DNA of 23,344 nucleotides from a virus. The DNA lies in IMG/VR virus record IMGVR_UViG_3300048773_000012, positions 1 to 23,344 of that record; one strand, 5' to 3'. The notes beneath the pieces are model-generated. The model searched no databases. It worked only from the letters and a program-made list of their open reading frames with translations, and had not been told where the DNA came from. Position 1 is the first letter of the stretch; each line of letters opens with the position of its first letter. Below are positions 2,574 to 22,817 of the stretch, in pieces. Position numbers and translations under genes: made by a program.

Positions 2574-2746
2574 AACTTGTCGAATTCACGGTCTACAACG
2601 TTGGGTCTCTGGTCTCCGTCAACCCAGAGGCCGTGTCTCAGGTTGGGATGATGAAGGACGGACACGCCATCATCCATCGAATCGACGGTGTCTCGGTTGA
2701 GACTTCGGAAACTTACGAAGAAGTTTGCAAGGCGCTAGTCGAATGA
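2570..2746 (+). CDS. Small hypothetical protein (58 aa)
   Basis: Begins MKLVEFTVYNVGSLVSVNPE, with GGAG eight bases upstream and an ATGA overlap with the gene before. The pattern (N-terminal strands, VSVNPEAVSQV, a central IIHRIDG, C-terminal helix) resembles LytTR-like or flagellar FlbD-type small beta proteins, but I cannot assign a family. Confidence 0.65.
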   Translation: MKLVEFTVYNVGSLVSVNPEAVSQVGMMKDGHAIIHRIDGVSVETSETYEEVCKALVE

Positions 2747-3201
2747 AAGCTCTGACCCTATGGCAGCCGTGGGCCTCGCTGGTCGCGATGGGCCACAAGA
2801 CAGTTGAGACCCGAGGCTGGAAGACCGACTACCGCGGCGAGATAGCAATCCACTCGGCTGCGAAACTCCCGCCAAAGTGGCTTGGAGCTTCCCGGCACCA
2901 ACCTGATTTCAGAACCGAGCTTGCCGATTGCTTTAACGTTAGACGCGACGTGGACGATCGCTGCGGCCGCCACGTAGACGAAGCAATCCTCGCCTTGCCT
3001 TACGGCTCTGTCCTGTGCATCGTGAAGTTGATGGACATCGACGAGATCGACGGCATTGTGCGCTACACGGTTTCCGACCGCGATCTGATCTTTGGAAATT
3101 ACGAAGACGGCCGCTACGCTTGGTGGTTGGAGTTAGTTGAAGTCTTTGAGAATCCAATCCCCGCCAAGGGAAACAGGATGCTATGGAACTGGGAACGATA
3201 A
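2743..3201 (+). CDS. ASCH-domain protein
   Basis: 152 residues. The N-terminus reads LTLWQPWASLVAMGHKTVET followed by RGW, the hallmark of ASCH domains (a PUA-like fold linked to RNA binding or nucleoside handling). Further family features are GEIAIHSAAK, a central SVLCIVKL strand and a C-terminal GRYAWWLE plus LWNW. Phage ASCH proteins are common; some bacterial relatives hydrolyse N4-acetylcytidine, but that activity is not shown here. The ATG at 2743 overlaps the preceding stop (ATGA). The 3' end overlaps the next gene by 19 bases. Confidence 0.85.
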   Translation: MKALTLWQPWASLVAMGHKTVETRGWKTDYRGEIAIHSAAKLPPKWLGASRHQPDFRTELADCFNVRRDVDDRCGRHVDEAILALPYGSVLCIVKLMDIDEIDGIVRYTVSDRDLIFGNYEDGRYAWWLELVEVFENPIPAKGNRMLWNWER

Positions 3202-3604: not shown

Positions 3605-3900
3605 CGCGCTTCAATGAAGACATGATTCGCCGCAAGGGACTGCCGGCGGATGTGCGCGGCTTGATCCATGACCTGTGCTACGACCACGAAGGACGCGACC
3701 GGGAGCAGTACAAGAAACGAGCGCAGGAAATTATGAAGCGAGACAAGAGCCCACTCGATTTCTCGAAGGGGGTTCGCGGCAAGTACGTTGGCAAATTTAG
3801 GATCACTTCGAACGGATTCAAATGCCGCGGCTGCAGGGCTCGCGTTCGATTCGCCGGAGATTACTGCGGAGAGTGCATCTGTGAGGACGATAGCGAGTGA
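3601..3900 (+). CDS. Small protein with C-terminal four-Cys zinc ribbon (99 aa)
   Basis: Starts with GTG in a GTGA overlap; an in-frame ATG at 3622 is the alternative. The N-terminal two thirds are helical and charged. The C-terminus has CRGC followed by CGEC, then one more Cys, a standard zinc-ribbon spacing. The stop again forms GTGA with the next gene. A role in nucleic-acid or protein binding is inference from the ribbon only. Confidence 0.65.
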   Translation: MTRFNEDMIRRKGLPADVRGLIHDLCYDHEGRDREQYKKRAQEIMKRDKSPLDFSKGVRGKYVGKFRITSNGFKCRGCRARVRFAGDYCGECICEDDSE

Positions 3901-4382
3901 CATCTTCTGCTCTCTTCTCTGACGACCGCCGGTATAGATACTGGCTCCTCAGAACATGGGAGTCGGGACAACCGAGAGTCGCGTTTGTGGGCCTAAACCC
4001 CTCCAAGGCAACGGAAACCGAAGATGACAATACGATCCGGCGCTGCATCGGCTTTGCTCAGCGCTGGGGCTTTGGTGGACTGCTGATGCTCAATTTGTAT
4101 GGCTATATGAGCACCCAGCCGGCTCGGATGTGGGAGCACCACAAGCGCGGTGGGGACATCATCGGCGGCGAGAAGAACTACTTGGCGTCGTTACAGCACT
4201 ACGTCGAGCATTTCGGGGTAGAGCAGACGATCGCGGCTTGGGGTAACGACAAACTCGGCCGCGAGCGAGCGTTTCGATCTTCTGGATGGAAACTGGATTG
4301 CCTGAAAAAGAACAACGACGGATCCCCTGGCCACCCGTTATATCTGCCGTACCTGGCAGAGCGGCAGCCGTGGAATTACTGA
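3897..4382 (+). CDS. DUF1643 family protein
   Basis: 161 residues. The segment RYRYWL ... RVAFVGLNPSKATETEDDNT followed by IRRCIGFAQRWGFGGLLMLN and LYGYMSTQP is the defining DUF1643 pattern. AAWGNDK in the second half is also typical. The family is common in phages and plasmids. It has no established biochemical role. It starts with GTG in a GTGA overlap and is the last gene before a promoter gap. Confidence 0.88.
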   Translation: MTSSALFSDDRRYRYWLLRTWESGQPRVAFVGLNPSKATETEDDNTIRRCIGFAQRWGFGGLLMLNLYGYMSTQPARMWEHHKRGGDIIGGEKNYLASLQHYVEHFGVEQTIAAWGNDKLGRERAFRSSGWKLDCLKKNNDGSPGHPLYLPYLAERQPWNY

Positions 4383-5073: not shown

Positions 5074-5090
5074 AGTCCAAGTCTTGGACT
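5074..5090. repeat. 17-bp perfect palindrome, site 1
   Basis: AGTCCAAGTCTTGGACT: two 8-bp arms that are exact reverse complements around one central base. It lies in the short gap between the stop at 5072 and the ATG at 5114, just upstream of the ribosome site, the position of a repressor operator. The same arms recur exactly at 7038. It lacks the loop and T-run of a terminator. Confidence 0.7.
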
Positions 5091-5374: not shown

Positions 5375-5590
5375 ATGGCAAGAGGGCGGCGACATCACAA
5401 GCATGGAGGTCGCAAAGATGGGCATCGTCATCACCGCAAGCACAGTTGGGATTATGATGATGATGTTCCAAGTGTTGTCGTTTCTCCTCGAAAGCCGCGT
5501 GCTCCACGAAAGAAGAAGTCAGAACCCCTCGGCTCAATCGAAGAAGTGGCGAGCCGTCCGGTACGGAAGATCAGGATCGTGAAAGAATAA
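5375..5590 (+). CDS. His/Arg-rich protein with C-terminal RPVRKIRIV tag (tag gene 1)
   Basis: 71 residues. The first 27 are almost wholly His, Arg, Lys and Gly (MARGRRHHKHGGRKDGHRHH), then an acidic YDDD, then VVVSPRKPRAPRKKK. The C-terminus is SRPVRKIRIVKE, the first of five consecutive genes with this ending. A His-rich tract could bind metal or nucleic acid. The start at 5375 is three bases after the preceding stop, with GGGAGCG upstream. No family recognised. Confidence 0.65.
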   Translation: MARGRRHHKHGGRKDGHRHHRKHSWDYDDDVPSVVVSPRKPRAPRKKKSEPLGSIEEVASRPVRKIRIVKE

Positions 5591-5878
5591 ATGGCGACTC
5601 TCTACCAGTGCGCGATGTGTGACGGCATCACGAATACGACATGGAAAGTGGGCGACCGGAATCTATGCCGCGCATGCTTTGGCCGGGAGAAATTGGGAAC
5701 CTACGGCACGGACGACATCAAACACGAATCGTCTTTACGGTTAGTTCGCGGCGATGGCACGATCTGGGAGATTGATACGCTGTCTGGTAGGCCGGTGGGC
5801 GGAAAAGTTGCGGCTGGGACGATTGACGTGGCACGGCCGGTGCGGAAGATTCGAATCCTGGCGGAGACGCAGAAGTGA
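5591..5878 (+). CDS. Zinc-ribbon protein with C-terminal RPVRKIRIL tag (tag gene 2)
   Basis: 95 residues. The N-terminal 30 hold CAMC and CRAC, a four-cysteine zinc ribbon. The middle has short strands (LRLVRGDGTIWEIDTLSG). The C-terminus reads ARPVRKIRIL followed by six further residues, so the tag here is not fully terminal. ATG at 5591 directly abuts the preceding TAA. The stop is overlapped by the GTG of the next gene. Confidence 0.7.
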   Translation: MATLYQCAMCDGITNTTWKVGDRNLCRACFGREKLGTYGTDDIKHESSLRLVRGDGTIWEIDTLSGRPVGGKVAAGTIDVARPVRKIRILAETQK

Positions 5879-7179
5879 ATCAAGAAGTGCTGGACTACAT
5901 TCTCGCGAGTTGCGACCACGTTGCCCGGGTGTGGGACATTTCCCTCTTATACCGCGACGTCGACACCCTCGCGGGCGACCTTTTGGTTGTCGGGCACAGC
6001 CTCAACTGGATTCGATCCCGGCGGTCCGAGATACGGGAGCACGTAGGAGACGGCGCGATTCACTCCACTTCGCAGCGAAGGCTTGTATTTGTCAATACTC
6101 GGACAGTTGATTTTTCAACATCGACCAACTTGAACGCCTTTCGTGGATACCATTGGGTGCGAGCTTACGTGCAGGATTTTATGGCGGAAACCGTGAACGC
6201 CCCTGGCTCGATGCCGGTTTGGCGGATTCCATCGCAAGCCGACTGGCACAACGTGAGCGATGCCGTCGAAGACGCCACGGAGTTCTTGCGGACCCACGAA
6301 GGCGAAGTGGAATTCGACTTTCAGGGGAACCGCTACAAGGTTCCTTACGGCTGTGACTACTGCGTGATGGTGGGTTCGGTGATGCCGGAACAGCGAGCCC
6401 GGTATAGCACTTCAGGCTTGCGGACGCAGCCTTTCTGGATGGGTGGCGATGAGAACATGTTGGCGAGGGATGCCGGCGCGATCTCATTGCGCTCGGTGCA
6501 GGATGCTTACGCCTCAGCGATGTTTTCGACTTCTCCAGCAGTCCCGCAGCATGTTATAGACCAAGCCTTGGTAGCGAGTGCCGTAGCCGACAATGCCACG
6601 GCTGCGGCTTCGCCCAATGCGGCAATTACACGGCAGCACGCAGAGCAGGCAATGCAGCGTATCAATGAGATCACAAACCAGCGGCTAGCCGACTATGTGT
6701 ATGGGCCGTCGCCAACCTTCGAGCGGCTGCGCTCCAGAGGTCGCCAGGCTTTCGATGGCGGCGATGTGCTGCGGAACCCAATTCAGTTCGCGTTGCCAGA
6801 TCCGATTCGCGTGGACCCGCTGGACTTACCCGGCGTGGGGAACACGGGCGCGCCGCAGTGGAATTTCAGTGAAGTGGCACGCTGGCCAACGGCTGCACCG
6901 TCAGCCCGTGAACTGGACTTGCAGCGGCGGCTGGATACCGTGCGGGAGTGCCTATCGAGGGGGCCGAATCCGATTGTATTTGGCACCCCAGAGGATGCAC
7001 GGAGCGCAATGGAAGCGTTGAATTACCCTGCGGCTCCAGTCCAAGACTTGGACTCTTACGTTTACCGCTACGAGTTCGTAAACGGGCAGGCATTGAAAGT
7101 GAACGACAAGCTCTCTTGCGGGACGATTCTGGATGCGGCTGCGAGGCCGGTGAGGAAGTTCCGGCTGGTGGAGGAGTAG
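5875..7179 (+). CDS. Large unknown protein with C-terminal RPVRKFRLVEE tag (tag gene 3)
   Basis: 434 residues, the largest of the tag set. It starts with GTG in a GTGA overlap with tag gene 2. Segments of note: an N-terminal alpha/beta region (MNQEVLDYILASCDHVARVW), an Ala/Thr-rich helical part around 225-265, a Pro-rich linker near 290-330, and the C-terminus ARPVRKFRLVEE. No signal peptide or membrane helix. No enzyme motif I recognise. It contains a perfect copy of the 17-bp palindrome at 7038-7054. Size and position allow a structural or injected protein, which is inference only. Confidence 0.75.
   Translation: MNQEVLDYILASCDHVARVWDISLLYRDVDTLAGDLLVVGHSLNWIRSRRSEIREHVGDGAIHSTSQRRLVFVNTRTVDFSTSTNLNAFRGYHWVRAYVQDFMAETVNAPGSMPVWRIPSQADWHNVSDAVEDATEFLRTHEGEVEFDFQGNRYKVPYGCDYCVMVGSVMPEQRARYSTSGLRTQPFWMGGDENMLARDAGAISLRSVQDAYASAMFSTSPAVPQHVIDQALVASAVADNATAAASPNAAITRQHAEQAMQRINEITNQRLADYVYGPSPTFERLRSRGRQAFDGGDVLRNPIQFALPDPIRVDPLDLPGVGNTGAPQWNFSEVARWPTAAPSARELDLQRRLDTVRECLSRGPNPIVFGTPEDARSAMEALNYPAAPVQDLDSYVYRYEFVNGQALKVNDKLSCGTILDAAARPVRKFRLVEE
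7038..7054. repeat. 17-bp perfect palindrome, site 2 (inside a gene)
   Basis: AGTCCAAGACTTGGACT: same 8-bp arms as site 1 with the central base changed from T to A. It lies within the 3' part of the 434-residue gene and about 130 bp before the next gene, so selection on protein sequence does not explain the symmetry. Confidence 0.7.
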
Positions 7180-7185
7180 GTGGGA

Positions 7186-7701
7186 GTGGGAAGGCGCGGC
7201 AGAAAACGTCATCGAACTGGCAGAAGAGGCGGCTGGCTTATTGAAGTCGGAGCCGACACTCTACCGCACTTGGTTCGCACACAGCCGATTCTTAGGATTC
7301 CGTGGTACAAGAGATTGTGGAGGTGGGTTATGGGTGGAAACGGAGTCGGAGGAGTATTCGGTGGACCGTTTGATTCGCAAATGATGGCAGAGCCGCCGAT
7401 GTGGCGCGGAGTCGGTATGACTACGACGGCAACCGATGCACAGTCGTATGCACAAGGCGGGCAGGCTGCGTGGCAGCACGGCCTGGCCGGGACGCTGGGC
7501 GGTATCGCCGCAGCCGTTGGCCCTGGCGAAGCCAACTCCTACCAATTTGGTTTCACGGGATGGCAGGAAGGCAGAGGCTACGTTCCGAGAGGCTACGTTC
7601 CGATAGAAACAAAACCCGCCCCTGCACCTTCCGAGCCCGGCAAGCCGATCTCCGAGGCTGCGGCTCGGCCAGCTCGTAAAATCAGGATCGTGGAGGAGTA
7701 G
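7186..7701 (+). CDS. Gly-rich protein with C-terminal RPARKIRIVEE tag (tag gene 4)
   Basis: About 171 residues. The GTG at 7186 is nine bases after the GGAGGAG ribosome site; a GTG at 7180 is too close to it, and an ATG at 7330 with its own GGAGGTG is a valid alternative giving 123 aa. The N-terminus is Arg/His/Lys-rich, followed by a Trp-rich patch (WYKRLWRWVMGG) and a Gly/Ala-rich body. A 15-bp tandem repeat gives RGYVP twice. The end is AARPARKIRIVEE. Function unknown. Confidence 0.65.
   Translation: MGRRGRKRHRTGRRGGWLIEVGADTLPHLVRTQPILRIPWYKRLWRWVMGGNGVGGVFGGPFDSQMMAEPPMWRGVGMTTTATDAQSYAQGGQAAWQHGLAGTLGGIAAAVGPGEANSYQFGFTGWQEGRGYVPRGYVPIETKPAPAPSEPGKPISEAAARPARKIRIVEE
7573..7602 (+). repeat. 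Perfect 15-bp tandem duplication
   Basis: AGAGGCTACGTTCCG occurs twice back to back (7573-7587 and 7588-7602) and encodes RGYVP twice in tag gene 4. The exact identity implies a recent slippage event that kept the frame. Confidence 0.85.
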
Positions 7702-7707
7702 CGTGTT

Positions 7708-7872
7708 GTGCCCGGCAACTACATTGAATTCCCTTTCCGAATCATCGAGAAGCGCCGGCGCCGTGGCAGAAAGAAAAACTGCCAGTGTAAAGCGTGTCGG
7801 GACAAAACCGCACGCACGGTGATGACGGGAGCGGAGCGGCCGGTTCGTAAAATCCGCGTGGTGAAGCGCTGA
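7708..7872 (+). CDS. Arg-rich Cys-pair micro-protein with C-terminal RPVRKIRVV tag (tag gene 5)
   Basis: 54 residues from a GTG at 7708, preceded by GGAGGAG. The sequence runs MPGNYIEFPFRIIEKRRRRG, then RKKN, a CQCKAC motif, and ends ERPVRKIRVVKR. The shared tag confirms that this short frame is a real gene. Three close cysteines in a basic setting could bind zinc. It is the last gene of the tag set; promoter P4 follows. Confidence 0.7.
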   Translation: MPGNYIEFPFRIIEKRRRRGRKKNCQCKACRDKTARTVMTGAERPVRKIRVVKR

Positions 7873-7954: not shown

Positions 7955-8794
7955 ATGAACAACTGGATAGGGCTTGCGAATCTCGTCGTGAATGCAGCGG
8001 TTCTGCTAACGCTCATCTTCGTTGTCCTAAAAGAACTCAAGGAGATTAAGATTATGGCAACCGCATCTCAGGCTCTTACCGACCTACAGGCCATGCTAAC
8101 CGCGCTTGTCGCAGACGTTGCGGCAGCGGTCACGGACATTGCTGACCTGATCGAACAAGTCTCGGCCTTGAATGGCCTTAACCCAACGGCAGTCGAAGCC
8201 GTTGTTGCGCAGGGCAACGCGGCTCTGGCCAGCCTTCAGGCTTCGGTCGCCAATGCCAACAACATCCTGAATCCGTCGACGGTGACGATCTCGATCTCAC
8301 CAACGACTGCTTCTCTGGCGCCGGGCGCAACACAGCAATTCACGGGCACCGTGAGCGGCAACGCGAACACGGCTGTGACGTACAGTTGCTTGACGGGAAG
8401 CATCTCGCAGACCGGGCTCTACACCGCTTCGACGACTCCGGGAACCGACACGGTTACGGCTGCAAGTCAGGCGAACCAGGCCAAGGTCGCGACCGCTCTG
8501 GTCACGGTCTCGGCTACGGTTGCTCCGACGATCACGGTTTCGATTTCACCGACTAGCGCTGGTCCCGTGGCTCAGGGCTCGACGCAGCTATTCACGGCTT
8601 CGGTTACCGGCGATCCGGCGAACGCTGGCGTGACTTGGTCGCTGGCTCCGGTGGCCGTTGGTGTGTCGACCGGAACGATCAACCCGACGACCGGGATCTA
8701 CGCACCGCCAACCACGCCGGGTGGAACTGACACGGTCATCGCGACCAGCGTCAGCGCTCCGACTGTGACTGCCACCGCAACGGTGACGTTCTAA
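7955..8794 (+). CDS. Membrane-anchored protein with two Ig-like (Big_2-type) domains
   Basis: 279 residues. Residues 6-26 form a membrane helix, then a short charged linker, an Ala-rich helical stretch (35-105) and two Ig-like repeats (about 109-187 and 192-279). Each repeat starts VSISPT-like, contains QQFT/QLFT, then GLYTAS/GIYAPP and a TDTVTA-like strand. Such repeats mediate surface binding in phage and bacterial proteins. An internal ATG at 8054 (residue 34) has its own AAGGAG ribosome site, so a soluble form lacking the membrane helix may also be made. A host-surface or virion-decoration role is inference. Confidence 0.8.
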   Translation: MNNWIGLANLVVNAAVLLTLIFVVLKELKEIKIMATASQALTDLQAMLTALVADVAAAVTDIADLIEQVSALNGLNPTAVEAVVAQGNAALASLQASVANANNILNPSTVTISISPTTASLAPGATQQFTGTVSGNANTAVTYSCLTGSISQTGLYTASTTPGTDTVTAASQANQAKVATALVTVSATVAPTITVSISPTSAGPVAQGSTQLFTASVTGDPANAGVTWSLAPVAVGVSTGTINPTTGIYAPPTTPGGTDTVIATSVSAPTVTATATVTF

Positions 8795-8863: not shown

Positions 8864-9259
8864 ATGACTGAGCGTTGGGAAATAACGGTTGGAGAGATCG
8901 AAGAGGGCGTCAACTGCAAGTTCTTCCGCAACGATTTTCAGGTGTACCGCTTTACGGCTCCGGATATGATTCTCGCAATGCTGGCACTCCCAGAAAAAGT
9001 TCGCAAGCTGAGCCAGTTCCCGGTTCGTATCAACAATCGCAAGGACGTGAACGATAACGTATTGGGGCGAGAGATTTATTACCGGGAGATGACTGCTATC
9101 GTTGCGGACTTCGACGGCGAGAACGGTAGAGTTCTCATGCGAGCACCATATCCTCGTGGGTTCTTGTCGGAGCCGTGGGTCGATGGGTCCAAGTCTTGGA
9201 ATCAGGACATCTGGGAAGACCTGCTATCGCCGCACATTCATTGGCACAGAGAGGAATAA
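8864..9259 (+). CDS. Hypothetical protein (131 aa)
   Basis: The in-frame ATG at 8831 lies in the loop of the terminator-like hairpin, so I take the ATG at 8864, which has GGAG 11 bases upstream. The product starts MTERWEITVGEIEEGVNCKF and is mixed alpha/beta. It has a basic middle (QFPVRINNRKDVNDN) and a C-terminus rich in Trp and His (SPHIHWHREE). No domain recognised. It contains palindrome site 3. The next start follows after five bases. Confidence 0.65.
   Translation: MTERWEITVGEIEEGVNCKFFRNDFQVYRFTAPDMILAMLALPEKVRKLSQFPVRINNRKDVNDNVLGREIYYREMTAIVADFDGENGRVLMRAPYPRGFLSEPWVDGSKSWNQDIWEDLLSPHIHWHREE
9186..9202. repeat. 17-bp palindrome, site 3 (near copy)
   Basis: GGTCCAAGTCTTGGAAT: the central TCCAAGTCTTGGA (13 bp) is fully symmetric; the outer bases differ from the perfect copies. 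Lies inside the 131-residue gene, about 70 bp before the next start. Confidence 0.5.
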
Positions 9260-9723: not shown

Positions 9724-10026
9724 ATGCCAGTCCCGCTATGTGAGCCGTGCCTTCGCCGTAGTCGACAGAGTCGGGCGTCACGCAAGGTTGGAGACGAATG
9801 GTTCTGCGATACCTGCTGGGTGGGTGGCGGCGCTGAAGAACGGAAGTGTCGGCTGTGTCCGCGGAACATTCGGGAATCGAACCAAACAGAGTACTGCGCA
9901 CGCTGCCAGCAATCGGGCGCTGCGAAGAAAGACATCAAAAAGCGAGAGGAAAATGAATCAGTACGACCGAGTCCTAACGTGGAACACGAGCCTGGTGGGT
10001 TTGCCGTGCCAGCCGACTTCAAGTGA
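9724..10026 (+). CDS. Double zinc-knuckle protein with four CxxC motifs (100 aa)
   Basis: Contains CEPC, CDTC, CRLC and CARC at regular intervals in the first 70 residues, enough for two four-Cys zinc sites, followed by a Lys-rich and a Pro/Glu tail. GGAG lies eight bases before the ATG at 9724. The last 74 bases overlap the deformylase gene in another frame. Nucleic-acid or protein binding is likely for such ribbons, but no target is evident. Confidence 0.65.
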   Translation: MPVPLCEPCLRRSRQSRASRKVGDEWFCDTCWVGGGAEERKCRLCPRNIRESNQTEYCARCQQSGAAKKDIKKREENESVRPSPNVEHEPGGFAVPADFK

Positions 10027-10504
10027 AGAGTGCTTCGCGCTAAACCTTCGCCAGCGGCTTTTGCGGACGTGTGTGGCCTACGGTGGCGTTGGAGTGGCGG
10101 CTTCGCAGATCGGCGTGAATCTCCGAGCCGCTCTGGTCAATTACGAAGACCGGACGATTATGTTTATCAATCCGGAGATTACGGAGACATCAGGCGGGTC
10201 GCTGTTCTGGGAGGGGTGCTTGAGCCTCCCGCTCTGCACCGGGGGCCGTGCCAAGAACAAGACGTACCAGGGTGGCAAGGTCCATCGGCCTGACAAGATC
10301 ACCGTGAAGTACCAGAACGACGGCGGCGAAGAGAAGGTCGAAGAGTTTACGGACTACATGGCGCACATCGTTCAACACGAACTCGATCATCTCGACGGCC
10401 GATTTTACGTTGAGCATTTGAGCAGTGTGGAGCGGGACATTATCTTCCGTAAGTTCCGGCGATTTCAGCGGTACTTTCAAGTGGTTGAGGAGGTCAAGGT
10501 CTAA
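9953..10504 (+). CDS. def: Peptide deformylase
   Basis: 183 residues with all three deformylase motifs: motif I GVGVAASQIG (45-54, Gln52; the usual Pro is Ser51), motif II EGCLSLP (87-93, metal ligand Cys89) and motif III QHELDHLDG (141-149, HExxH with His142, Glu143 and His146). The enzyme removes the formyl group from nascent protein N-termini with a catalytic metal. Phage deformylases are known from marine phages. Catalytic residues are intact, so it should be active. Start chosen at 9953 with AGAGGAAA upstream; the reading frame extends farther back only through the preceding gene. Confidence 0.93.
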   Translation: MNQYDRVLTWNTSLVGLPCQPTSSEECFALNLRQRLLRTCVAYGGVGVAASQIGVNLRAALVNYEDRTIMFINPEITETSGGSLFWEGCLSLPLCTGGRAKNKTYQGGKVHRPDKITVKYQNDGGEEKVEEFTDYMAHIVQHELDHLDGRFYVEHLSSVERDIIFRKFRRFQRYFQVVEEVKV

Positions 10505-10875
10505 TGTGGACATATCATCAGGCAAGCGGATGTTTGGAAGACGCGGACGGGGTGATTGCCGGAACCGGCTACAGTGGACACGGTCCCGGAGTCAATAATC
10601 CGACGCTGCAGAACGATCCAGATGTCGGTCCCATACCGCAAGGTTTTTGGACGATCAGCCCATCGTTTTCGAGTCCAACCAAAGGGCCGGTGGTGATGGA
10701 CCTGATGCCGAACGCGGCTACAGAAACGTTTGGGCGTAGCGGTTTTATGATGCACGGCGATTCGGTGGAGCACCCGGGCGCGGAAGGGGCAAGTTTGGGT
10801 TGCATCATCATGGCGCGGTCGATTCGCCAGGCTGTGGCTGCGAGCGCGGACAAGGAATTGCAGGTGGTGGCATGA
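10504..10875 (+). CDS. DUF2778 / L,D-transpeptidase-like protein
   Basis: 123 residues. Motifs are YSGHGPGVNNP near 23-33, GPIPQGFW (42-49), GRSGFMMHGDS (77-87) and a SLGCIIM (97-103). The His-Gly followed by Ser-x-Gly-Cys mirrors the L,D-transpeptidase catalytic His/Cys pair and the Tlde1-type DUF2778 family, which acts on peptidoglycan peptides. There is no signal peptide, so export would depend on a holin or lysis. It could be a lysis or wall-editing enzyme. Starts at a TAATG overlap with the deformylase gene; its stop overlaps the next ATG. Confidence 0.8.
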   Translation: MWTYHQASGCLEDADGVIAGTGYSGHGPGVNNPTLQNDPDVGPIPQGFWTISPSFSSPTKGPVVMDLMPNAATETFGRSGFMMHGDSVEHPGAEGASLGCIIMARSIRQAVAASADKELQVVA

Positions 10876-11459
10876 GCAAGCCGATTCTAGTTCTCGACTT
10901 CGATGGTGTCTGCCACAGCTACACAAGTGGCTGGAAGGGCGCGGACGTGATCTCCGATCCGCCAGTCGAAGGCTTATGGCATTTCCTTAACGATGCCGTC
11001 AAGGTCTTCGAGGTCAACATCTTCTCGTCTCGCTCGAATCAGGCCGGAGGGATCGAAGCGATGAAGGTGTGGTTCGCTCATGAAGGCGATGTGGTGCCGG
11101 GGATTGTGGCCGAACTTCGCTTTCCAACTGAGAAGCCGCCAGCGATGATCACATTGGATGATCGCGGCATATTGTTTGAGGGGACGTGGCCATCCGTGGA
11201 GAAGTTGAAATCTTTTCAACCTTGGTATCTTCGAAAGAAAGGAGGGCCAAACATGCAACCACACCAAGAACGAGTTGTAGCGGAAATGAAGGAGTTGGAT
11301 GAGAAGATCGTCAAACTTGACACCTTCCGGCATAGTCCGCTTTACGAAACGCTGCCAGATGCAGAGAGAGATCGGCTGACGCGGCAGTACGCCCACATGA
11401 AGGATTACTCGAATGTGCTCGCTGAGCGCATCGTTGCGTTCGACGTGCCGCAGTCGTAA
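10872..11459 (+). CDS. HAD-family phosphatase fused to a crAss001_48-like domain
   Basis: 195 residues. The N-terminal HAD part has motif I LDFDGVCH (8-15, Asp9 nucleophile and Asp11), SGWKGADVISDPP, motif II FSSRS (51-55) and motif IV LDDRG (95-99). This is a typical phage HAD group of unknown substrate. Residues 128-195 form a separate helical module (ERVVAEMKELDEKI, HMKDYSNVLAERI) resembling the small phage proteins annotated as crAss001_48-related. The junction holds AAAGGAGGG and an in-frame ATG at 11253, so the second module can also be made alone. ATGA overlap at the start. Confidence 0.82.
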   Translation: MSKPILVLDFDGVCHSYTSGWKGADVISDPPVEGLWHFLNDAVKVFEVNIFSSRSNQAGGIEAMKVWFAHEGDVVPGIVAELRFPTEKPPAMITLDDRGILFEGTWPSVEKLKSFQPWYLRKKGGPNMQPHQERVVAEMKELDEKIVKLDTFRHSPLYETLPDAERDRLTRQYAHMKDYSNVLAERIVAFDVPQS

Positions 11460-12729: not shown

Positions 12730-13239
12730 ATGGAGCAAGCAAGTTTGCGCGATCTAATGGAGTCGAATACACCAAAGACCGACTCCTTCCTTCCGGTCAA
12801 GCAGTTCGATGATCTCCTGAAATCGCTCAATCAGAAGAGCCTCGAAACGTGGTCGGTTGGCGGTGCCGTGTGTGCGATTATCTATCGCGTCGAAGGTGGA
12901 CTCGTACGAATCTATCGCGGCGATCCGCATCGGTGGGGTATGGTGCAACAGCGTCTCGCGCTCGGAACTCTCGGTCTCGATACGATAGCTGATAGCCCTC
13001 TGGGCAGCGGCGTGCTGGGCGGGGAAATGGCGAGAGAGTTATTGTCCGAGAGGGCTGGTCTCGATGCTCGCGAGTACGGCCCGCCAAGCAGTCCTCCGGC
13101 AGCGGTCGCGATCAACTGTATCCCAGATCAGCAGCGAGAGTGGGCTGCGAAAGCCGAAGCACAAAAGAAAACAAGGCGACCTAACAAAGCCAAGAAGAAA
13201 GCGAAGTCCAAGACTCGGACTCGCCGCAAGTCCACCTAA
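12730..13239 (+). CDS. Hypothetical protein with basic tail (169 aa)
   Basis: Has the strongest ribosome site in this region (TAGGAGGTGAGTT before the ATG). N-terminal helices, a hydrophobic patch (WSVGGAVCAIIYRVEGGLVR), an Ala/Ser/Pro-rich middle and a highly basic tail (from about residue 143, KKTRRPNKAKKKAKSKTRTR). The tail suggests binding to DNA or RNA. Palindrome site 4 lies in the tail codons. It is the last gene before the terminase promoter. Confidence 0.7.
   Translation: MEQASLRDLMESNTPKTDSFLPVKQFDDLLKSLNQKSLETWSVGGAVCAIIYRVEGGLVRIYRGDPHRWGMVQQRLALGTLGLDTIADSPLGSGVLGGEMARELLSERAGLDAREYGPPSSPPAAVAINCIPDQQREWAAKAEAQKKTRRPNKAKKKAKSKTRTRRKST
13205..13221. repeat. 17-bp palindrome, site 4 (one mismatch)
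   Basis: AGTCCAAGACTCGGACT differs from the perfect copy at 7038 by one base (T to C). It lies at the end of the basic-tail gene, about 30 bp before promoter P6, so it is well placed to affect terminase expression. Confidence 0.6.
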
Positions 13240-13282: not shown

Positions 13283-13867
13283 ATGGTTACCCGCGCAGAG
13301 ACCAGCCTCGGCTCTCCCAAGCACATCTCCCGGTTCATTCGTTCCAAGGCTGGAAAGACCTACGACGAGATTGCCGCAGAAGACAATATCAGCGTCGAGC
13401 AGGTCAAGAAATCTATCCGTACGGTTGAGTTCAAGCAGGGCTTCCATACCAACGAGTATCTAAACGCCGAACTTATCGGCATGATCCTAAAGGCATCCCC
13501 TCCCGCGCTCTCTGCTTTGATCGAGGCTTTGAAAGCTGGCAAGAATCGTGAAGCTACAAACGAGCAAGGCGAGAAGTTCACGGTTTTCGAGCCGGATCAC
13601 GACACGCGGCTGAAGGCTCTTTCGGAGTTCCAGAAGATTGCCGTAGCCGCACAGCCAAAGGCCGGGCACCAGACGAACGTCAAGGTGGGTGTGGGTGTCG
13701 GAGTTGGCGTCACCCAGGCGAGCGGCAGCTATGTTGGTATGGAAGACCGCATGCGCGAGCTTCGCCAGAGGATGAAAGACCAGCCTGTGCTCCCCGGAGT
13801 TGTTATCCAAACCGCTTCTCTGAAGACCATCGACGCCGAAGTTGAGGACGAGGCTGACGATGAGTAG
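13283..13867 (+). CDS. terS: Terminase small subunit (by HTH and position)
   Basis: 194 residues directly before the large terminase. A helix-turn-helix (TYDEIAAEDNISVEQVKKSI, about 27-46) would recognise the packaging site. The middle is helical. A VGVGVGVGV stretch (135-143) and an acidic tail (VEDEADDE) follow, a layout seen in other phage small terminases. The start is the ATG at 13283; the same frame is open upstream but overlaps the preceding gene. The stop overlaps the large subunit start by eight bases. Confidence 0.75.
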   Translation: MVTRAETSLGSPKHISRFIRSKAGKTYDEIAAEDNISVEQVKKSIRTVEFKQGFHTNEYLNAELIGMILKASPPALSALIEALKAGKNREATNEQGEKFTVFEPDHDTRLKALSEFQKIAVAAQPKAGHQTNVKVGVGVGVGVTQASGSYVGMEDRMRELRQRMKDQPVLPGVVIQTASLKTIDAEVEDEADDE

Positions 13868-16853
13868 CCTAACCAGAAAGAATCCCTACCTCAACGAAGC
13901 GATTGAGATTTTGGACCAGCATCTTCGGCGCTGCAAGTACGACGTTGCCGTAGCCGCGAACACCCTGAGTCACGTTTACAGCGAGTTCGTCAACGAAGAG
14001 TTAATGAAGTGCATGGTGGACCCGCGGTACTACCTTGAAAACTACCACGTCATCAAAACCAAAGACGAAGGGTTCAAGACTCTAAACCCATTCTTCGAAG
14101 CACAGGAAATCATCTACTCCGAAATCATGGAACTGCTGGCGGCTGGGAAGCCGGCCAAAGTTTTAATTGACAAGGCGAGACAGCAAGGTAGCTGCTTGGA
14201 CCCTGAGACTCCGATTCTCACCGACGATCTACGTTGGATCGCGATCGACGAAGCAGAACCGGGACAAGGTCTGGTCTCAGTTGAAGAAGAATTCCGCGGC
14301 GGTAGGGGTAAGGGCCGAGAATTAAGACAAGCACACGTTGTGGCCCGAAGGGATGTATTTGAGCCAGCGTTCCGATTGGTAATGAGCAATGGAAGTAGTC
14401 TCATAGCGACCGGCCCGCACAGGTTCTTGTCACGAGTTCGAGGTGGCGTGTCGACTATCTGGCGTACCGTAGAAAACATGAAAGCGGGAGATGTGATTCG
14501 TCACATCGTTAAGCCGTGGAGTGATCCAACTGTGGAAGACGGTTGGTTTGGTGGATTCACCGATGGTGAGGGTTGTTTACGAGTTAAGCATTGGGGTGGA
14601 GTTGAGGTAAGCGTATCGCAACGATTCAATGAAGCATATGAGCGGGCTCTCGCCTACATGCAATCCCGTGGCTACACGTTCCGCGTAGAAGTAGACAACA
14701 GGAAGGGCGGAGAAAATAGCAAGTTTGGGAATGAGCCTGTCGCGCGATTGGTCGTCAATCGACTGGGGGAAATATTTAGGCTGATGGGCCAGACTCGCCC
14801 CGCTCGCTTCACCGGGAAAACGTGGTGGGAAGGTAAGGACATTCCTGGGCGTACCGGGGAAGGGGAGGCATGGTCGGAAATCGTTGCCATTGAACCACTC
14901 GGTAAGAAGCGCATGGTAGACCTACAAACCACGACCAAAACTTATATCGCCAATGGATTCGTATCACACAACAGCACGCTCGCGGAAGGTCTTATCTTCC
15001 AACACACCATCTTCAACGAGGCTGTGAATACGCTGATCGTCGCGCAAAACCCAGCGCAGTCGGACTACCTGTTTTCGATGTCGCTGCTGGCGATGGAAAA
15101 CCTGCCGTGGTGGATGCAGCCGCGAGTCCGGTTCCGGTCGAAGGCGCGGTACTTGGTGCTTGATTCTGACAACCCAGAGATGCGCGGCTTGAACTCCACG
15201 ATCTACGTGGACGCAGCGAATAAATTAACCGGCGTATCGGTTGGTCGAACCATCCACTGTGCTCACTTGAGCGAACTTTCAGACTGGGATAACGCGGAGA
15301 TTCTTACGGAACAAATCTTCCCGACGATGTCTGGTAAGAACGTCATCGCCATTCTGGAATCCACGGCTCGCGGTGCGGATGGATTTTGGTACGACTTCTG
15401 GACAGAGGCCGTGGAAAGCTGGGGCGAAGAAGACTGGGAGTGGAAGCCGATCTTCGTGGAGTGGTTCCGGTGTAGCGACTACTCGATGCCGAGCGAGAGT
15501 AAATTCAACCGCACGGCCGAAGAAGAAAAGATTTGTGACAAAGTTCTGCGCGCTTCCGGATACAACCTTACGGATGAGCAACTGAACTGGCGGCGAATCA
15601 AGCGCAAGGAAACAATCAAGATCAAGGGCGACGACACTTCATTCCTGCAGGAGTATCCACTTACATGGCAGGAGTCGTTCCAGGCGAGCGGCTTGTGCGC
15701 TTTCCCGAAGTCTCTGCTGTACGAGATCATGAATACGACTTGCTGTGATCCGCTCTGGTATGGCGAGTTGGAATACAGCCATGGGGCAGCACAGGAGTGT
15801 AAGCCACATCTTACTTCGACGTTCGACGAGGCGGAGCGCGCAAGGACTGGCAATGTGGTTTACAAGCGCGATCGGTTCATCCCCCCGGCAAAGAAGTACG
15901 GTGCGCGCATGAGAGTCTGGGAAATGCCAGAAGCCGGGGAATCGTACTACGTTGCTGGCGATCCGGCTCACGGTTTGGAAGGTGGAGACTTTTCTTGTGC
16001 GCAGGTGATTCGTATCGGGCACGGCTCAGAACCGGACGTTCAGGTGTGTGAGTGGAACGGCTGGATCAACCCAACACCGTTCGGGCACGTCTTGGTCGGT
16101 TTGGCGAAGTGGTACAACAATGCCGAGCTTTCGGTGGAGATGAACGCGGTCGGGGAGCGGACGTACATCGAAATCTTCCGCATCTTGGAATACCCAAACC
16201 TGTTCCGGTGGAAGCACTACGACAAGGTCAAAAACTTCTGGTCGGATTACATGGCGTGGCTGACGACGTCGAAGACCCGTGATCTGATCATCACAAATTT
16301 GCGCGAGCGCATCATGGAAAAAACCGTGACGCTCTACAGTCAAGAACTATTGACCCAGATGCTTCACTTCACGGCCGACGAGGATGGATCGAAGTTCCAA
16401 GGGCAGGCCAGCAATGATGACCGCGTTATGGCGATGCAGATTTGTTTGTGGTGCGCGCATGACTCGGATTACGGGCGCCAGGCCGCGATGGCTCCGAACA
16501 CAGGGAGTGAGGCGCACAAGAAGTACTACGTCATCGACGACGTAAACCGGGTGGTATTTACGAGCCAGCAAAAAGACGAAGCCTACGCCGCGGCTTACGT
16601 GAAAGGCGAAGCGAGAAATATTAAAGGGGAGATCATTCCAACCCATGCGGTGATGCGGCCGGGCTGGTCCGTGGCACACATGCCAAACAAGAAAGACTTC
16701 AACAACAGCGATTTTTCTCCGGTGCACGATAAGGCTGGTCCGCGAGCGCAGATTCATGCGTTCGGAGTTCCGGCTGAGAGTATTCGGTTGGATAACATTC
16801 AAGAGTGGGAGATGATGCGAGAATCGCAGGACAGGGACTGGATGACGATCTGA
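13860..16853 (+). CDS. terL: Terminase large subunit with an internal intein
   Basis: 997 residues encoded, about 737 after intein removal. The packaging motor ATPase and nuclease of the phage head. Residues 78-111 lead into the Walker A region KARQQGS, interrupted after Ser111 by the intein and resumed at STLAEGL. Walker B region is near TIHCAHLSELSDW. An ESTARGADGFWYDF motif follows. The RNase H-type nuclease part shows YVAGDPAHGLEGGDFS, LSVEMNAVGE and a DDRVMAMQ. The ATG at 13860 is chosen because the codons before it lie in the small subunit gene. TGATG overlap joins it to the next gene. Confidence 0.93.
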   Translation: MSSLTRKNPYLNEAIEILDQHLRRCKYDVAVAANTLSHVYSEFVNEELMKCMVDPRYYLENYHVIKTKDEGFKTLNPFFEAQEIIYSEIMELLAAGKPAKVLIDKARQQGSCLDPETPILTDDLRWIAIDEAEPGQGLVSVEEEFRGGRGKGRELRQAHVVARRDVFEPAFRLVMSNGSSLIATGPHRFLSRVRGGVSTIWRTVENMKAGDVIRHIVKPWSDPTVEDGWFGGFTDGEGCLRVKHWGGVEVSVSQRFNEAYERALAYMQSRGYTFRVEVDNRKGGENSKFGNEPVARLVVNRLGEIFRLMGQTRPARFTGKTWWEGKDIPGRTGEGEAWSEIVAIEPLGKKRMVDLQTTTKTYIANGFVSHNSTLAEGLIFQHTIFNEAVNTLIVAQNPAQSDYLFSMSLLAMENLPWWMQPRVRFRSKARYLVLDSDNPEMRGLNSTIYVDAANKLTGVSVGRTIHCAHLSELSDWDNAEILTEQIFPTMSGKNVIAILESTARGADGFWYDFWTEAVESWGEEDWEWKPIFVEWFRCSDYSMPSESKFNRTAEEEKICDKVLRASGYNLTDEQLNWRRIKRKETIKIKGDDTSFLQEYPLTWQESFQASGLCAFPKSLLYEIMNTTCCDPLWYGELEYSHGAAQECKPHLTSTFDEAERARTGNVVYKRDRFIPPAKKYGARMRVWEMPEAGESYYVAGDPAHGLEGGDFSCAQVIRIGHGSEPDVQVCEWNGWINPTPFGHVLVGLAKWYNNAELSVEMNAVGERTYIEIFRILEYPNLFRWKHYDKVKNFWSDYMAWLTTSKTRDLIITNLRERIMEKTVTLYSQELLTQMLHFTADEDGSKFQGQASNDDRVMAMQICLWCAHDSDYGRQAAMAPNTGSEAHKKYYVIDDVNRVVFTSQQKDEAYAAAYVKGEARNIKGEIIPTHAVMRPGWSVAHMPNKKDFNNSDFSPVHDKAGPRAQIHAFGVPAESIRLDNIQEWEMMRESQDRDWMTI
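14193..14972 (+). mobile_element. Intein in the TerL Walker A loop, with LAGLIDADG-like homing domain
   Basis: 260 residues in frame (TerL residues 112-371). It starts with Cys (CLDPETPIL, splicing block A), has block B with ATGPHRF (T184, H187) and ends KTYIANGFVSHN (blocks F and G: His370, Asn371), with Ser as the +1 residue. All catalytic residues for protein splicing are present. The core holds WFGGFTDGEGCL (229-240), a LAGLIDADG motif, and LMGQTRPARF, resembling a conserved end region of such nucleases. Splicing would restore KARQQGS joined to STLAEGL. Confidence 0.93.
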
Positions 16854-17286: not shown

Positions 17287-18078
17287 ATGCCATCAAACCC
17301 AGTTACAGGAATGGAAGCCGCTCCCGTTCAAGATGTCTTCGGGGGCGAGCGCAAGACACCCCACGCGGTTTTCTCCCAGAGCCGCGCTGAAAGCGGTTGG
17401 ACCCCAACGAATCCAAATGGCAACGTAGCCGTCACGCATCGTCCAAACGATCTGGCTCTTGAGTGCCCAGATTGCGCGATGGCCGGAGAAGCGGGTGTGC
17501 GGCTGTTCGCCCGTGAAGGTGTCGGCTACTACTGCATCAAGGGTTCACACGTTTGGAAGGACATCGACGCGCTGCTGGCGCGGAACCCGAAGAAGCTGGA
17601 GTATCGCGGCATCGTGGCAAAGCAGGTTGGCTACAAGGAAATCAAAATCTCTGTGCCGGGGAACGTTGCGGATGCTTTCATGACGCGGTTTGGCGAGCGC
17701 GGAGCCGCAACGCTGGCCTCGATCATGAATACGCTCAGCGATTCACGGTCGATGATGCTGACCGAATCCGACCTCAAGAACATCGAAGAAAAACTTGGCA
17801 AGCCGGTAAACAACGGGACGATGATTGCCGGGGAGTTCTATTCGATGAAGACGCAGTTGGATGAGCAGAAAGCCACGGTCGAGCGGCTGCGAAACAATCT
17901 TCAAACGGCGGCGCGTGGCAGCCGAGTCCAAGTATCGGACTCGACGGTAGTGGTGGAGTTGAATGACGACGTGGCCGAGAAGGTCAGACAGGTGGTAGCT
18001 GGTCTGGGTGAGCCGTGGACGGTGGAGAGTTACATCGCAGAAGCGGCGCGACTGGGAGCCGAAGGGGGATGGGTATGA
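17287..18078 (+). CDS. Hypothetical protein with Cys pair and coiled coil (263 aa)
   Basis: Begins MPSNPVTGMEAAPVQDVFGG, ATG abutting the preceding TAG. A CPDC pair (about residue 60) and one more Cys (YYCIKGSHVW) could form a partial zinc site. A VSVPGNVADAFMTRFGERGA-like alpha/beta stretch follows. Then comes a coiled-coil segment (YSMKTQLDEQKATVERLRNN). The C-terminal part is beta-helix-rich. Palindrome site 5 is in the coiled-coil to C-terminal region. ATGA overlap with the next gene. Function unknown. Confidence 0.7.
   Translation: MPSNPVTGMEAAPVQDVFGGERKTPHAVFSQSRAESGWTPTNPNGNVAVTHRPNDLALECPDCAMAGEAGVRLFAREGVGYYCIKGSHVWKDIDALLARNPKKLEYRGIVAKQVGYKEIKISVPGNVADAFMTRFGERGAATLASIMNTLSDSRSMMLTESDLKNIEEKLGKPVNNGTMIAGEFYSMKTQLDEQKATVERLRNNLQTAARGSRVQVSDSTVVVELNDDVAEKVRQVVAGLGEPWTVESYIAEAARLGAEGGWV
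17925..17941. repeat. 17-bp palindrome, site 5 (two mismatches)
   Basis: AGTCCAAGTATCGGACT: the left arm is identical to sites 1 and 2 and the right arm differs at two bases. The outer symmetry continues one base each side (GAGTCC...GGACTC). Lies within the 263-residue gene. Confidence 0.45.
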
Positions 18079-20774: not shown

Positions 20775-20784
20775 GGAGTGAATG

Positions 20785-20979
20785 ATGCCGTGGCGACCGG
20801 AAGATGCAAAACGCCACACGAAGAAAGCGCGGAGCCCGAAAGCAAAAAGGCAATTCGCGCACGTTGCAAATTCGATCTTGCAACGAACCGGTGATGAAGG
20901 CCGGGCGATTCGTGGAGCGAATGCAGCGGTAGCGAAGCGCGGCAAGAAAAAGCGGCACGGAAGAAGTTCGAGCCGCTAG
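20785..20979 (+). CDS. Small basic protein of a portal-adjacent phage family (64 aa)
   Basis: GGAG ends six bases before the ATG at 20785; the ATG at 20782 is too close. The product MPWRPEDAKRHTKKARSPKA continues with QFAHVANSILQRTGDEGRAI and ANAAVAKRG. This pattern recurs in many tailed phages as a small uncharacterised protein near head genes. It is strongly basic, with Lys/Arg/Ser at the C-terminus. A nucleic-acid role is possible but not shown. Confidence 0.65.
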   Translation: MPWRPEDAKRHTKKARSPKAKRQFAHVANSILQRTGDEGRAIRGANAAVAKRGKKKRHGRSSSR

Positions 20980-21002: not shown

Positions 21003-21161
21003 ATGTCGTACTCGCATTGGGTGGAGGCCCAATCAAAAACCCGCAGCCGGAATTCAAACCGGTTCGCGCGAGAAAGGGGGCAAAAATTCATGCTGGCAAT
21101 CAACAAGTTCGACATGGCCAACAAGCGCAAGAAGAAAGGCCGCGGCAAGCACGGCCGCTAA
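21003..21161 (+). CDS. Very small basic protein (52 aa; or 23 aa from 21090)
   Basis: In the frame from ATG 21003 the product starts MSYSHWVEAQSKTRSRNSNR and ends MANKRKKKGRGKHGR. The ATG at 21090, with AAAGGGGG nine bases upstream, gives a 23-residue basic peptide and has the better ribosome site. The basic tail resembles that of the gene before. Confidence is in the C-terminal part; the N-terminus may be untranslated. Confidence 0.4.
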   Translation: MSYSHWVEAQSKTRSRNSNRFARERGQKFMLAINKFDMANKRKKKGRGKHGR

Positions 21162-21890: not shown

Positions 21891-22817
21891 ATGGCACTGT
21901 CTGCTGAGCTTGAAGCATTGTGCGCTGAGATCGACAAGGTTGACCCCGCAGCCGGAAAGGCGCAGCGGGAAGCGCTGGAGAAGTTTCCAGCCCTCGCGAC
22001 AGTGACACAGGAGCAGAGGCTCCGCCAGGCTGACTACGACAAGAAGATGAACGACAGTAAAAAAGAGATCGAGTACGGCAAGACGATGAAGGATTGGGCC
22101 GACAAGAACGTCCCCAAGTTCGACGAGATGAAGAACGAGCGCGATACGGCTGTAGCCGCGCAGAGGAAAGCCGACGAGGCGCTGGCCAAGGCGCAGAAAG
22201 ACCTTGCTGCGAAAGTCGATACGGCCGCTGCCGCAGCCGGTGTTGACCCCGACAAACTGGCCGAAGCGGTTCGTCTGAAGATTGGCGGCGATTACGTCCC
22301 GAAAGCAGAGCTTGCGAAGTTGGTGAAAGATGAAGCCAACAAGCTTGTCGACGATGGGTTGAAGACGGCAACCAATAAGTTCTACAACGAAGACGTTCCG
22401 CGCCTTTCTGGCCTCAATGCCGCGCTGACCGAGGGTATGAACCGCTTCCATGATGAGTTCGGTGACCACATGGATCCTGAAGCTTACGTGGCTCACCTGG
22501 CAACCGGTGGCGACAAGTTCATGACGGACGGCAAGTTCGACCGCAAAAAGGCGTATGACGCTTTCGTTACTCAGCAGCGTTCGGACAAGGGCCGCGCAGC
22601 CGAGATCGAGAAAGAAGCGCAGAAGCGCGCGGACAAGATTATGGAAGAGCGCGGCATGGCCGGCGGCTTCCCGGGAACCAGTGGACCTGCTGGACCGATC
22701 CAAGTTCGATTGAATGCGAAGAGTGCGGACGACCCACTCTTCGGCGGCAAGATGGCGTTGGGTGATGGCGGCGCAGCAGCGCAGGCCGCAGCCGAACTCC
22801 ACGCTGAAGGCAAATGA
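21891..22817 (+). CDS. Head scaffolding protein (probable)
   Basis: 308 residues, very Lys/Glu/Ala-rich and largely helical, with a long coiled-coil centre (MKNERDTAVAAQRKADEALA onward) and a Gly/Ala-rich C-terminal end. Position directly before the major capsid gene and the acidic/basic helical character fit a scaffold that guides procapsid assembly and is then removed. There is no protease motif. Ribosome site GAGGAGAAAG lies upstream. Assignment by composition and context. Confidence 0.75.
   Translation: MALSAELEALCAEIDKVDPAAGKAQREALEKFPALATVTQEQRLRQADYDKKMNDSKKEIEYGKTMKDWADKNVPKFDEMKNERDTAVAAQRKADEALAKAQKDLAAKVDTAAAAAGVDPDKLAEAVRLKIGGDYVPKAELAKLVKDEANKLVDDGLKTATNKFYNEDVPRLSGLNAALTEGMNRFHDEFGDHMDPEAYVAHLATGGDKFMTDGKFDRKKAYDAFVTQQRSDKGRAAEIEKEAQKRADKIMEERGMAGGFPGTSGPAGPIQVRLNAKSADDPLFGGKMALGDGGAAAQAAAELHAEGK

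Follow-up and report, generated by a model that had tools for sequence, protein, structure and literature searches.

Five consecutive genes of a tailed soil phage encode proteins of different bodies that end in one shared nine-residue core, R-P-[VA]-R-K-[IF]-R-[ILV]-[VL], followed by the stop codon 2-5 residues later; we tentatively read this core as a C-terminal docking peptide that would recruit the five accessory products to a common partner, which most likely sits in the assembling head. The cassette occupies positions 5375-7872 on the plus strand of the window, as the whole stretch of 23,344 nucleotides analysed is called here, in which the gene order comprises terminase, portal, scaffold-like and capsid genes, with the scaffold at 21891-22817. 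The tagged genes are:

5375..5590, plus strand: tagged gene 1 (P1, 71 aa, His/Lys/Arg-rich), core RPVRKIRIV at 5555-5581, ending in VKE before the stop, C-terminus SRPVRKIRIVKE
5591..5878, plus strand: tagged gene 2 (P2, 95 aa, zinc-ribbon-like CxxC..CxxC), core RPVRKIRIL at 5834-5860, then AETQK, C-terminus ARPVRKIRILAETQK
5875..7179, plus strand: tagged gene 3 (P3, 434 aa), core RPVRKFRLV at 7144-7170, ending in VEE before the stop, C-terminus ARPVRKFRLVEE
7180..7701, plus strand: tagged gene 4 (P4, 173 aa from GTG 7180), core RPARKIRIV at 7666-7692, ending in VEE before the stop, C-terminus ARPARKIRIVEE
7708..7872, plus strand: tagged gene 5 (P5, 54 aa, Arg/Cys-rich), core RPVRKIRVV at 7837-7863, ending in VKR before the stop, C-terminus ERPVRKIRVVKR

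All five reading frames and their C-termini lie where the earlier note had placed them, the residues after the second core being five (AETQK) and not the six it had counted. An ATG at 7330 with a good Shine-Dalgarno sequence offers an alternative start for P4, shortening the protein to about 123 aa. The codon-usage scores of P1 and P4 are poor; the best evidence for translation of all five ORFs is that five separate frames display the same pS/pN pattern, described below. The IMG/VR contig 3300037342_000010 represents the same phage (query proteins at 100% identity), begins within gene 3 and extends 14 kb beyond the window end.

The similarity of the tags exceeds chance. In the alignment of C-terminal tails from 43 genes, the ten possible pairs of tags all reach 39-59, against 32 for the highest-scoring pair without them, and a control of 100 residue shuffles of the 43 genes gives a best pair with a median of 29, a 95% value of 36 and a largest value of 39. 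The earlier claim that selection acts on the peptide and not on the DNA is borne out by the nine core codons, which, pooled over copies, show a pS of 0.63, near saturation, versus a pN of 0.14: synonymous differences are almost saturated and non-synonymous ones are few, with the arginines of the tags encoded by CGT, CGG, CGA, CGC and AGG. The same synonymous divergence rules out a recent DNA duplication of the tags. R, P, R, K and R do not vary among the copies and have hydrophobic residues interspersed; four of the nine residues are basic, and a loosely similar linker precedes the core among the tagged proteins. The bodies are unrelated within the detection limits, as had been proposed; the closest pair of bodies, P1 and P4, aligns at E 0.19 through basic segments.

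The ends of genes 3 and 4, GTG GAG GAG TAG, include the Shine-Dalgarno sequence GGAGGAG of the next gene:

7168..7179, plus strand: Shine-Dalgarno overlap at the P3 end, GTGGAGGAGTAG, where the final tag codons double as the Shine-Dalgarno sequence of gene 4
7690-7701, plus strand: the same overlap at the P4 end, serving gene 5

Because the terminal EE of these two copies doubles as a Shine-Dalgarno sequence, the signal comprises the nine-residue core only; gene 5, which has no abutting downstream neighbour, ends differently and keeps the core. The docking or cargo-tag interpretation put forward in the earlier note stands in part: it gains from the selection on the peptide, and the suggestion of cleavage by a phage protease finds no support, since what follows the core is variable and the Shine-Dalgarno-bearing EE terminates two of the copies. 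A prohead-protease site likewise finds no support, the post-core residues differing among copies and P5 carrying no Glu there. A mimic of another phage protein was also considered and discarded, as none of the predicted plus-strand genes elsewhere approaches the tags in score.

The tag is known from one phage only, where it is confined to the protein ends of a single tight operon. It is absent from every other gene of the window, as first reported, and likewise from the 14-kb continuation on the overlapping contig. Searches elsewhere comprised (i) IMG/VR (2.9 million viral contigs; DNA-pattern and alignment scans), which returned the same phage and short non-gene frames only; (ii) 84,980 species genomes, where 17 matches approximate a rough chance estimate from base frequencies and none is a repeated or convincing gene end; (iii) phage and plasmid records (tblastn), with nothing beyond the same phage or chance; (iv) the PDB and (v) 41 relatives, in neither of which the tag was found. 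A profile search with A1 over 11 records used a set without a positive control. Regarding the bodies, none of the five matches a family in the family libraries or a defence family, no homologues were found for the bodies searched, P2 has no relatives among viral contigs, and P3 retrieves only the same phage from IMG/VR. The open-access literature yielded no earlier description of one phage with such a shared C-terminal tag.

P3 includes a short stretch of the capsid protein:

6658..6792, plus strand: P3 segment, residues 262-306, homologous to major capsid protein residues 11-55 (N-arm and E-loop start), by BLAST and profile

The alignment with the phage's own capsid protein is ungapped, with 19/45 residues identical (BLAST E 2e-7 and profile E 6e-8 in its own proteome; E 2e-6 among the 12,158 ORFs of relatives). 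As a query in the relatives, P3 matches every capsid gene via residues 261-306, and the only strong capsid-profile matches among the 12,158 ORFs are P3 and genuine capsid proteins or fragments. The segment keeps 11 of the 15 residues invariant across 22 capsid proteins and just 8 of the 30 variable ones; with a DNA identity of 67/135 (50%) it is not a recent copy, yet it retains capsid-constrained positions. P3 does not comprise a whole capsid fold, the significant match being confined to residues 262-306 of 434. The capsid protein is of the podovirus type (NF033394), and its model (mean pLDDT 58) displays an HK97 fold by Foldseek, in which the segment corresponds to the first long strand and, in a part modelled at low confidence, to the N-terminal helix region; the AlphaFold model of P3 alone (pLDDT 33) is unusable.

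A second, shorter resemblance to the capsid protein occurs in P4:

7534..7572, plus strand: P4 capsid-like peptide NSYQFGFTGWQEG, compared with capsid residues 277-290 KYQFGFTGWKEA, suggestive only

The P4 stretch YQFGFTGWQE parallels YQFGFTGWKE of the capsid protein with different codons. The match is significant, at E 3e-4, in a search of just the five tagged proteins and has E 0.02 in the phage's own proteome; at E 0.8 among 12,158 ORFs it is not significant in the large search, and it was downgraded from a strong match to a suggestive hint that P4 may carry a capsid-like peptide. The capsid segment in P3 lends indirect support to virion targeting, with this fainter hint beside it.

The relatives considered here come from the 46 loci retrieved with the capsid protein, which, apart from the contig of the phage itself, are 52-84% identical; the sequence covered amounts to large parts of many contigs. 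Neither the tag nor the tagged bodies occur in the fetched relatives. In the nearest syntenic one (G039, capsid 83% identical), the gene order is common from the Ig-like gene at 7955-8794 rightwards and the cassette is absent upstream of it, other small genes occupying its place, which identifies the cassette as accessory. About 15 kb separate it from the capsid gene, its site being an accessory region outside the head cluster, and its neighbours left of the terminase are accessory genes including ASCH, DUF1643 and peptide deformylase genes.

Several further features of the window were observed. Accessory genes for an ASCH domain, DUF1643 and a crAss001_48-related C-terminal domain are located at 2743-3201, 3897-4382 and 10872-11459, the ASCH gene having a 72% identical homologue in the relative G036, and a Tlde1 domain protein (10504-10875; Pfam 2e-12) is encoded immediately following the phage peptide deformylase (9953-10504). 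A dispersed 17-bp palindrome, AGTCCAAGnCTTGGACT, is found at 5074-5090, 7038-7054, 9186-9202, 13205-13221 and 17925-17941 with 0-2 mismatches (chance expectation 0.11), is present also in the near relatives L077, L073, L022 and L061, and appears operator- or stoperator-like. The large terminase gene (13860-16853) contains an intein at 14193-14972, which splits the P-loop region RQQGS|STLAEG.

Several related phages have another module at the C-terminus, FKxGGxVKKTGxxxLHKGExV with a basic tail, on 2-4 neighbouring small genes no more than a few kb from the capsid gene, with four such genes in each of G007 and G011, three in G005 and two in G028:

L025, 13554-14614: GGxVKKTGxxxLHKGExV module genes
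L023, 12261-13002: GGxVKKTGxxxLHKGExV module genes
L049, 6223-6761: GGxVKKTGxxxLHKGExV module genes

The phages with this module have a capsid protein about 67-74% identical. Like the tagged cassette, the system comprises consecutive, mostly dissimilar small genes (no similarity of the bodies in G005 and G028, little in G007) with a common C-terminal module of high pS and low pN (0.69-0.76 versus 0.17-0.21). It differs from the tag in being longer, near the capsid gene and tape-measure-like, resembling tape-measure C-termini (phrog_15478) with weak similarity to halovirus tape-measure proteins, whereas RPVRKIRIV matches nothing; the GG-x-V..G..LH-x-GE core occurs neither in the window nor in its continuation. 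In this phage group, then, neighbouring small proteins habitually share one C-terminal module, and RPVRKIRIV may represent the same usage with a different peptide. Small proteins encoded near the portal and capsid genes bear Arg/Lys/Ser-rich tails, such as RKxxRGSSRR, group-wide:

Window, 20782-20979 and 21003-21161: Arg/Lys/Ser-tail proteins
L011, 9844-9972: Arg/Lys/Ser-tail protein
L051, L052 and L063: Arg/Lys/Ser-tail proteins

A docking or cargo tag is the most economical reading of the shared peptide. In the proposed mechanism, the RPVRKIRIV core would act as the C-terminal docking (targeting) peptide of the five accessory proteins. Once these are translated, their cores, basic and strand-prone, would bind the same site on one partner, and five different payload domains would therefore reach one place. 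Three points are inferred: binding by the tag as such, a partner common to all five proteins, and the residence of this partner in the head. A component of the assembling head, either capsid or scaffold, is the first guess for this partner because P3 carries a copy of the capsid N-arm and E-loop and because the parallel in the relatives is linked to the head; a head location of the tagged proteins, like this reading as a whole, is rated slightly below even odds. The points against head docking are the restriction of the tag to one phage, which leaves no homologues across which to follow it, the distance of about 15 kb from the capsid gene, the non-significance of the P4 peptide in the large search and the poor codon usage of P1 and P4. 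The fuller version, in which the five accessory proteins enter the virion via the nine-residue peptide, one of them also by a copied capsid arm, and the other C-terminal modules of the relatives serve the same purpose, is possible, on the doubtful side.

The main alternative to a head partner is a host enzyme or early phage protein, on which the tag would dock the five proteins as takeover or counter-defence factors. The setting of the cassette among accessory genes (ASCH, DUF1643, peptide deformylase) and its absence from the nearest syntenic relative would suit such a role, as would the zinc-ribbon-like and strongly basic small proteins, since early phage factors are often zinc-binding or very basic small proteins; this reading is nevertheless unlikely, leaving the capsid segment of P3 unexplained and meeting no defence-family match. 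Less probable is a basic nucleic-acid-binding tail without a protein partner, by which the small proteins would coat DNA or RNA: the four basic residues of the core, the other basic stretches in P1, P4 and P5 and the Arg/Lys/Ser tails on small proteins by the capsid gene of relatives are consistent with it, but the core keeps its Pro, its hydrophobic positions and their exact order, unlike those loose tails. An accessory cassette could also be directed at competing phages, P3 mimicking a capsid arm and diverting the head assembly of a co-infecting relative while the tag holds the inhibitors together; the P3 segment is indeed slightly nearer to the capsid proteins of other relatives (21/45) than to its own (19/45), yet a gap of two residues provides no evidence of specificity and the other four proteins have no capsid part save the weak P4 match, which makes this improbable. 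The least probable account, already disfavoured by pS/pN, regards the tags as remnants of serial duplication with replaced bodies, kept mainly as a translational coupling signal, as the Shine-Dalgarno sequences in P3 and P4 and a P1/P4 tail similarity reaching a few residues upstream might suggest, but coupling involves no more than two or three codons at the very end, the core upstream of them is conserved as protein with saturated synonymous sites, and the last gene retains it without an abutting neighbour.

If the tag loads the head, it would represent a portable C-terminal cargo signal of phages, recognisable from sequence alone, and would disclose a route to injected accessory proteins missed by homology search. 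The search principle, which combines unrelated neighbouring genes, conserved C-termini and saturated synonymous sites, is applicable to any phage collection and also picked up the second, different module in the related phages.

Compared to known targeting peptides, the putative docking tag shares features with two systems. The capsid targeting sequence of phage T4 sits at the N-terminus. Carried by diverse internal proteins, it brings defence proteins into the prohead core (PMC3012670). As in T4, diverse proteins of one phage are united only by a short peptide; the peptide here differs in sequence and in being C-terminal, 2-5 residues from the stop. On the other hand, family 1 encapsulin cargo displays a short C-terminal targeting peptide, hydrophobic and basic, bound by an HK97-fold shell (PMC10960027). 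The tag is likewise C-terminal, short and hydrophobic/basic, but encapsulins are bacterial nanocompartments, whereas the present tag, known from sequence alone, belongs to a phage with a podovirus-type, HK97-fold capsid. By analogy, RPVRKIRIV would work similarly to the T4 and encapsulin targeting peptides while probably being a member of neither.
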